A stretch of 64,000 nucleotides of DNA from NCBI GenBank assembly GCA_019695175.1, contig JAIBAM010000010.1, forward strand, positions 1 through 64,000. The letters are read 5' to 3'. The notes beneath the pieces are model-generated. The model searched no databases and had not been told where the DNA came from. It worked only from the letters and a program-made list of their open reading frames with translations. Shown one piece after another: positions 5,788-60,241 of this stretch. Both the position numbers and the translations under genes were made by a program. The stretch is from Bdellovibrionales bacterium (GTDB lineage Bacteria; Bdellovibrionota; Bdellovibrionia; Bdellovibrionales; UBA1609). Position 1 is the stretch's first letter, and every line of letters starts with the position of its first letter.

Positions 5788-5986
5788 TTCTTTGTTTCCG
5801 TTCATTTTCATCAGTACCGCAAATGGCTTTTTCAATTCATATCGCACGGTTAAGCCATCTAATACTGGGTTAGAGAGTGCTGTATTCAAGAACTTTCTAC
5901 GCTCATAGGCTGACCTATCAATCCATAACGATTTCGCTGATGTAGCCAGTTCTAAAACAGTTTTCGCCGTTTCCATTACTGCCCCT
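5788..5986 (-). pseudogene. Serine-recombinase C-terminal relic abutting the tRNA (copy 2)
   Basis: The minus-strand frame reads METAKTVLELATSAKSLW, then AYERRKFLNTALSNPVLDGL and TVRYELKKPFAVL. This is the C-terminal end of a site-specific serine recombinase (helical segment, YERR, SNxxLDGxxVRY, KPF). No catalytic N-terminal domain is present upstream; a perfect inverted repeat begins at 5987 instead. Downstream the frame continues without a stop into the antisense of tRNA-Val, giving the familiar spurious RPDSNRGP tail. The arrangement suggests a former element integrated at the tRNA 3' end and since mostly deleted. Confidence 0.6.
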
Positions 5987-6037
5987 GACTTCGTCGATTT
6001 GGAAATGAACGCAAGTCATTTCCAAATCGACGAAGTC
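5987..6037. repeat. Perfect 22-bp inverted repeat with 7-base spacer
   Basis: The arm 5987-6008 begins GACTTCGTCGATTTGG; the arm 6016-6037 is its exact reverse complement; the spacer is 6009-6015 (ACGCAAG). There is no T-run on either side and no intact gene ends here, so it is not an ordinary terminator. It sits exactly at the break between the recombinase relic and unrelated sequence. Confidence 0.85.
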
Positions 6038-6135
6038 AAGAGCTTTTAGTGCTGACACATGCTTTCGAACTTGTGTCTCATGAGGGCCTCCGCGCATATA
6101 CCCGATCTTTTTATAATTTTCCCCACACAAGATCT

Positions 6136-44702: not shown

Positions 44703-44949
44703 TCCCCCCCCTTTTTTTTAATTTAGTCCTATTTTGCGTCGGTTCGGGGATGGTACCTCAGCTATTGCCGGGTCTAAATTATAAAATTTATATTGGAAAT
44801 ATTTCAAAAAAACTATTTTTTCAGGCTTAAGGAGATGTAATTGAAACATAATATACCTTATCAGAACAATTTTAAGTGATAATATTATTAATTCTTCGAA
44901 ACCTTATTTCTTTTATCTCCTTAAAGTGGATTGAAAAAATTAATTAAAC

Positions 44950-59277: not shown

Positions 59278-59716
59278 AGTGTTCCGTCATGTTTATAGAT
59301 CTAAATTTCCATACATTTATATAACTGGGCTGTTATTGCTGTTATTAAGGATAAATAACAGCCACTTCGTATTGACCAGTCATCATATAATATTGTATTT
59401 AACATTATAGTAATGTGAAATACAATATTATATGATGCTTTATGCTGCATAAACAAAGCTAAGTCCTAAAATTGTTTCTGTTGAAGTTTATGAAAATCTA
59501 ACCCATAACTATACAAGGCAATTTGCAAATTTGACTAGATATTATAACTATAAGTTTAAGTGTTAACTTATTGATTTTAAATGGTTTTATATTTATATTT
59601 TTTTTAGAACAAAAGCTTTGGAAAGCTTTTTTATGGTATTTTCACAGCTTTTTAGGTAATGCGCCGTTTATAAATAATATTTATTTATCTATAGTTTGTA
59701 TAATGCGGAGTGATAA
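59278..59716. other. AT-rich intergenic region holding a long palindrome
   Basis: No gene is present. It separates the divergent HTH protein and tyrosine recombinase. It contains the 59381-59437 palindrome and a short perfect palindrome TTTATGC-T-GCATAAA (59439-59453) right beside it. The rest, especially 59520-59700, is strongly AT-rich. Confidence 0.6.
59381..59437. repeat. 57-bp near-perfect palindrome
   Basis: The left arm 59381-59400 is the exact reverse complement of 59418-59437 (20 bp, beginning CATCATATAATATTG). Inside, ACATTA and TAATGT pair around the 3-base loop TAG. The two are separated by one A/G mismatch, so the whole 57 bases fold into a 27-bp arm hairpin. It lacks a T-run. 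It lies 280 bases before a catalytic-domain tyrosine recombinase gene. Confidence 0.9.
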
Positions 59717-60241
59717 ATGAGTCAGAAACGATACACTCTAACTACTAACAAATATCTCTTGGACCCCGAGGTGGAGAGGTTAGAAGTTATAATTGAGTCC
59801 TTTATGCACAAAGATCCCCGCAACTGTTTGTTGCTCACCCTTGCATTACAGACCGGTGCCAGAGCTCAAGAAATACTAAACCTTAAAGCTGAGGATTTAA
59901 ATGATTACGAAGAGAGTCTTTTTATAAGAGGACTTAAAGGAAGCAATGATAGAGAGCTCCCACTTCGCTCCTATTTGTATAAATTAGTAAGGACTCATCT
60001 TCCTGCATCAGGCCCTCTGTTTACAATTTCCTATCAAAGACTTTATCAAGTTTGGCAGCTCTATCGGCCGGTCCAGAAGAAATTTCACTCACTAAGGCAC
60101 ACTTTTGCCATTAGACTTTATCAAAAAACCAAAGATATACGACTGGTGCAAGTGGCGCTAGGCCATAGAAACATCACTAACACCATGGTCTATGCGGAAT
60201 ATTTATACAGTCAAAAAGAGCTCCGAAAATTAATCCTATAA
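59717..60241 (+). CDS. Tyrosine recombinase, catalytic domain only
   Basis: The 174-aa protein is a minimal tyrosine recombinase. The catalytic residues are all present: R49 in TGARAQEIL, K74 in GLKGSNDREL, H124 and R127 in HSLRHTF, H150 in LGHRNI and the nucleophile Y159 in MVYAEY. The N-terminal core-binding (SAM-like) domain of XerC/D is absent. It resembles the small orphan integrases found in integrative elements and in single-gene inversion systems. The 57-bp palindrome upstream is a plausible substrate. No integrated element, second recombinase or cassette array is visible nearby. Confidence 0.87.
   Translation: MSQKRYTLTTNKYLLDPEVERLEVIIESFMHKDPRNCLLLTLALQTGARAQEILNLKAEDLNDYEESLFIRGLKGSNDRELPLRSYLYKLVRTHLPASGPLFTISYQRLYQVWQLYRPVQKKFHSLRHTFAIRLYQKTKDIRLVQVALGHRNITNTMVYAEYLYSQKELRKLIL

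Follow-up and report, generated by a model that had tools for sequence, protein, structure and literature searches.

The window, by which we mean the whole 64-kb stretch of DNA that was analyzed, contains a gene for a short tyrosine recombinase, a divergent gene for a helix-turn-helix (HTH) protein, a 57-bp palindrome and, ~100 bases beyond the latter, a smaller palindrome with an asymmetric right flank, which we refer to as the core (Table 1). The same layout of divergent HTH gene, operator array, core with right flank, and recombinase is common across genera.

Table 1. Positions of the features discussed, numbered from the first base of the window.
Feature	Position	Strand	Description
Candidate canonical XerCD dif	44841–44868	−	TGTTCTGATAAGGTATATTATGTTTCAA; very similar to the HD100 dif; lies 14.9 kb from the recombinase
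Divergent HTH gene, 155 aa	58810–59277	−	Weak HTH_31 match; C-terminal hydrophobic (putative transmembrane) segment
57-bp palindrome	59381–59437	.	Feature singled out by the first-pass annotation; holds two operator-like sites
Operator-like site 1	59392–59406	.	ATTGTATTTAACATT; 148 bp from the core; fits TTGTNNNNNACAA, as arrayed at orthologous loci
Operator-like site 2	59412–59426	.	AATGTGAAATACAAT; 128 bp from the core; phase class as in relatives
Core palindrome and right flank	about 59531–59574	+	GACTAGATATTATAACTATAAGTTTAAGTGTTAACTTATTGA at 59533–59574; putative crossover site
Tyrosine recombinase gene, 174 aa	59717–60241	+	PF00589 (1.9e-22), no other domain

A catalytic-domain recombinase linked to a divergent HTH gene

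As the first-pass annotation had stated, the recombinase keeps all six catalytic residues and lacks a core-binding domain: PF00589 is its only domain, and R49, K74, H124, R127, H150, and Y159 are invariant among the 16 orthologues compared. The core-binding domain is absent from all orthologues as well, and homology begins at RYxLNKNKYL in each of them. A split recombinase in the style of MpsA/MpsB was rejected, as no stand-alone core-binding protein was found and PF02899 is confined to full-length recombinases (7 genomes). The nearest folds to the AF2 model of the recombinase (pLDDT 88) are the catalytic domains of XerH, XerA, and phage integrases.

Orthologues are found in most Bdellovibrionales, one per genome, equally short and 53–71% identical; in a phylum-wide sample searched at a strict cut-off, all matches fell inside this order. 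Their tree unites them in one clade (95% of bootstraps), which agrees broadly with taxonomy and excludes the XerC and XerD proteins of these genomes. This clade is resident and vertically inherited. Full-length Xer-type recombinases are present in all 12 genomes tested, with XerD- and XerC-like pairs evident in most, and the module in the window is not the sole Xer system there, since XerD- and XerC-like proteins accompany it. For HD100, both xerCD and dif have been reported (PMC2731167, PMC11318664). In many species (loci L004, L006, L014, L028, L030, and others), the ~40 bp directly preceding the start of the recombinase contain a further conserved element, roughly CACTCGCGAGNTNNATGCGNNGCAT.

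The recombinase is missing from whole lineages whose relatives keep it, namely genus g33 (G042, G099, G100, G105, G107, and G111, including one closed genome) and the small-genome members of family f1. Where this was checked, the HTH gene is missing from these lineages too, and the absence may go with a different mode of growth or division. Across the relatives, the two genes are present or absent together with few exceptions, and in 20 further genomes HTH gene, recombinase, operators, and core are linked, apart from one core that was not found; G077, whose core is not matched by the search pattern, was excluded. The HTH protein has a hydropathy peak of 2.84 close to its C-terminus. No transfer genes were noticed at the locus. 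Conserved and vertically inherited, the module comprises HTH gene, operators, core, and recombinase, in place of the single-gene system envisaged at first.

The core as a conserved site of precise integration

The core consists of ACTNNNNCTTA-TAGTTA-TAAGNNNNAGT plus NNTWAAGTAYTTGA and occurs in some 60 Bdellovibrionales genomes. Its palindromic part can be read as a 28-bp site of 11-6-11 bp, which is the geometry of dif. Alignment of 44 cores revealed common TT..TA..TATA blocks, a T/A pair that keeps its place within the arms, and a right flank with a conserved TWA. Those arm positions that differ between cores co-vary, with complementarity in 193 of 258 outer pairs, compared with a permutation mean of 129 and a maximum of 153. 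The symmetry of the core is kept despite sequence change, as would be expected if two identical subunits read the site. The central four bases (59545–59548 in the window) are AGTT in most species and AACT in the window, G025, G034, G038, and L037, orientation being judged relative to the same right flank; the asymmetric center may be flipped in the AACT genomes. The genome of the window contains one core, and elsewhere there is mostly one convincing copy per genome. An invertible segment, and with it the inversion role that had been proposed for the recombinase, was rejected on the grounds that the genome holds no second core.

That recombination takes place at the core is well supported by two proviruses. 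In G053, a 9.47-kb provirus lies inside the core (L059:1200–10700) and encodes a 191-aa recombinase related to the resident one, together with an SLT lysozyme, a Collar-domain protein, a packaging-type ATPase, and a 368-aa capsid candidate. Its close relative G065 has an empty core with flanks that are 93% identical, which identifies the insertion in G053 as precise; both junctions have TAGTTATAT in common. In G093, a member of another genus, a related provirus occupies the same core (L099:8790–18150), and its junctions share TAGTTATAAGTG. The two insertions are independent, and each provirus carries its own related recombinase; these phage enzymes are the closest relatives of the resident clade. 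The crossovers in both genomes are consistent with TAGTTATA, which, in the 11-6-11 reading, would place them over the center. Because the phage half in G093, away from the recombinase gene, also carries TATTAAGTACTTGA, this flank is part of the site and not just a promoter of the recombinase. The core is a conserved site of precise integration, and we infer that the resident recombinase acts on it.

A third related provirus, on contig C3 of G065 (L101:12600–20000 and L102), does not lie at the core, and its att site was not found. The three elements of ~9–10 kb, all from Bdellovibrio relatives, each encode a capsid candidate together with a packaging-type ATPase, in two cases also a recognizable SLT lysozyme, and are possibly tailless phages. 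The capsid candidate is present in 3 of 141 genomes of the order and had no match in the phage collection; scans of viral contigs with both recombinases found no relatives.

Operator array, helical phasing, and terminus location

The 57-bp palindrome, in which the first-pass annotation had seen 27-nt arms with one mismatch, a 3-nt loop, and no T-run, is real and non-random: the arms (59381–59407 and 59411–59437) are 96% complementary, and the stem score of 23 is far beyond chance (≤12 in first-order simulated sequence). It is the joint strongest hairpin of the window, ends 279 bases before the start codon of the recombinase, in agreement with the ~280 bases noted at first, and has a single copy in the 2.6-Mb genome. 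Equal in strength is a perfect hairpin at 5986–6038 with 23-nt arms and a 7-nt loop. A function as terminator or structured RNA was rejected, given that the T-run is absent and that Rfam returned only sub-threshold look-alikes of plant and animal miRNA hairpins and no credible family. The single copy likewise disposes of a genome-wide dispersed repeat.

Orthologous loci usually contain three 15-bp operator-like sites, TTGTNNNNNACAA, at a spacing of 20–22 bp, and the 57-bp palindrome corresponds to two such sites with AT-rich extensions. The giant palindrome was seen in no other species scanned and the array is found in most of them, so that the former is a local form of the latter; the recurrence of the same palindrome beside recombinase homologues, which had been suggested as a check, was thus not observed. 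It probably represents two adjacent binding sites of the neighboring HTH regulator and is not the likely crossover site. Elsewhere, TTGTATTTCACAA occurs at or modestly above the count of a reversed-pattern control and with no obvious clustering, and operators as dispersed, terminus-wide binding sites were rejected on this comparison.

In 52 of the 53 genomes with a clear array, the third operator lies 105–109, 116–119, 128–130, or 139–140 bp from the core, and nothing falls between these four clusters; the lone exception was called automatically at 102 bp and reads 125 bp by eye. The spacing has a resultant length of 0.79 at a period of 10.8 bp, a value reached by none of 20 000 null draws, although it is based on 36 partly collapsed values and inflated by shared ancestry. 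Jumps by one helical turn do happen, because 106 and 117 bp both occur within one genus. The window, in which two operators are recognizable, belongs to the first phase class. Operators and core are phase-locked, and the fixed rotational phase suggests one joint nucleoprotein complex, which could provide recombination with accessory sites or else form a regulatory loop.

The candidate dif in the window has a matrix score of 39, compared with ≤18 in shuffled sequence, and is itself among the ten sites from which the matrix was built. Scanning of the flanks in 21 genomes placed canonical dif 8–22 kb upstream of the recombinase in 11 genomes, the window included, and found none in the other 10; in 13 further genomes with the recombinase, dif is likewise upstream, at 11–19 kb, which brings the genomes with dif 8–22 kb away to 24. 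In G061, the core is located near 1,934,676 and dif near 1,946,858; the other published HD100 coordinate, 1,940,732 (PMC2731167), is read as the skew shift. The GC skew of the window turns near 52 kb, and the orientation of dif relative to the recombinase gene varies between families. A conserved gene block separates dif and the module and partly explains their closeness; for this reason, selection for a terminus location is only suggested.

Comparison with Xer systems and other explanations

On balance, we lean towards reading the locus as a single-recombinase, Xer/dif-like site-specific recombination module in the terminus region, whose core is used as attB by small phages with relatives of the recombinase. 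The short recombinase would bind the two arms of the 28-bp core as identical subunits and exchange strands inside TAGTTA. The HTH protein would occupy the usually three 15-bp operators ~100–140 bp from the core on a fixed helix face, thereby joining or gating the recombination complex, and may control both promoters too; in the species of the window, two operators would have become the 57-bp palindrome. Because there is one core per chromosome, the sister chromosome is the obvious partner: The reaction would take place between sister copies and lead to resolution of dimers or multimers, or to terminus processing in multi-chromosome filaments, next to, yet separate from, XerCD/dif. The idea in the first-pass annotation of a recombination module made up of the recombinase and a linked site therefore stands in that such a module exists and is conserved through the order; its site, however, is the smaller palindrome.

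Several observations speak against this reading. Both integrations bring their own recombinase, so that they demonstrate recombination at the site but no part of the resident enzyme in it. Dimer resolution should already be provided by XerCD/dif, which these bacteria possess; the core-binding domain that Xer enzymes usually have is missing, and some lineages lack the whole module. Moreover, the helical phasing is also compatible with transcriptional control. The full catalytic set, a single-copy site of ~28–31 bp with inverted arms, and the terminus region are shared with single-recombinase Xer/dif systems, whereas the N-terminal core-binding domain and the position as the cell's only Xer system are not. 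Because the module lacks this domain, coexists with XerCD, and has a putative function, we do not call it a proven member, and our best reading is that it works like a single-recombinase Xer system. FimB/FimE invertases, which flip the DNA lying between two inverted repeats, have ~200 aa and no large N-terminal domain; the recombinase may be likened to them in its shortness, but a single core takes the place of two inverted site copies. Nor does the locus resemble that of a mobile-element integrase, being fixed beside cellular genes, with the proviruses additional to it.

The nearest precedent is XerL/dif of Legionellales (PMC9765430), where a single recombinase, found throughout the order, has a site with symmetric arms linked to the terminus; as here, an integrating mobile element revealed the system. 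XerL, however, is without a second Xer system in its order, and the protein is longer (catalytic Y387), whereas the enzyme described here consists of the catalytic domain only and coexists with XerCD/dif; in addition, our locus includes an HTH gene and phased operators, and the phages bring their own recombinase. According to PMC5357621, XerS/difSL of Streptococcus and Lactococcus and XerH/difH of Helicobacter and Campylobacter likewise combine one recombinase with one chromosomal site, and xerS adjoins its site as the recombinase does here. The same text gives XerS and XerH as proteins of ~355 aa that have a core-binding domain and replace XerCD, in contrast to the coexisting 174-aa enzyme of the window, and its passages on these systems describe no operator array like the one at our locus. 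XerH on the palindromic difH is the closest solved fold to the recombinase as modeled. XerCD/dif with its IMEX (e.g., CTX phage; PMC5357621) also shares the 28-bp 11-6-11 site, the terminus, and phage attachment, but employs two recombinases instead of one and differs from our core, which is truly palindromic; moreover, IMEX borrow the host recombinase whereas the phages here carry their own. MpsA/MpsB of SGI1 (PMC6414798) pairs a tyrosine-recombinase-like protein with a separate DNA-binding partner, as proposed here, but MpsB resembles the core-binding domain, of which no stand-alone version was found in our case. A search of a literature collection returned no description of this recombinase/core/HTH module.

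More tentatively, the catalytic-domain recombinase could work only in a phased complex with a membrane-tethered HTH protein on the operators, which would couple recombination at the core to envelope or division in multi-chromosome predatory filaments.

The succession of repressor, three operators, att site, and integrase is also that of a prophage, and the nearest kin of the resident clade are the recombinases of phages that use the same core. The locus could accordingly be a domesticated or relic prophage module with a CI-like repressor, which serves the host for a purpose different from chromosome resolution, such as the excision or exclusion of related phages, and whose att site is shared since all stem from one element. 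We consider this doubtful, given that one vertically inherited clade extends through many genera with every catalytic residue kept, that unoccupied genomes have no other phage genes at the locus, and that the C-terminal hydrophobic segment of the HTH protein is unusual for a CI-type repressor. A mainly regulatory core, which the recombinase or another protein binds for control of its own promoter while phages exploit the conserved sequence and the phased operators form a transcriptional loop, would agree with the promoter-like TTGA within the right flank, with the location between divergent genes, and with the helical phasing that activators and loops typically show. It is nevertheless unlikely: The right flank is found as well on the phage half in G093, at a distance from the recombinase gene, the recombinase lies 0.8–5 kb from the core in G046, G036, G022, and others while core and HTH gene remain together, and the catalytic residues are invariant. 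Finally, that the long, near-perfect, single-copy 57-bp palindrome upstream of the gene is itself the recombination or hairpin substrate, as first proposed, is hardly credible, since scanned orthologous loci have TTGTNNNNNACAA arrays in its place, the proviruses enter the other palindrome, and nothing was found that points to a folded single strand.

In the reading that we favor, predatory bacteria, probably including B. bacteriovorus HD100, have at this locus in the terminus region a second recombination module in addition to XerCD/dif, and this module is apparently undescribed. Predatory filaments replicate many chromosomes and must separate them, and the locus makes the question of dimer resolution in these cells testable. 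The module would show a recombinase working without the core-binding clamp, and its core would constitute the attachment site for a group of small Bdellovibrio phages.
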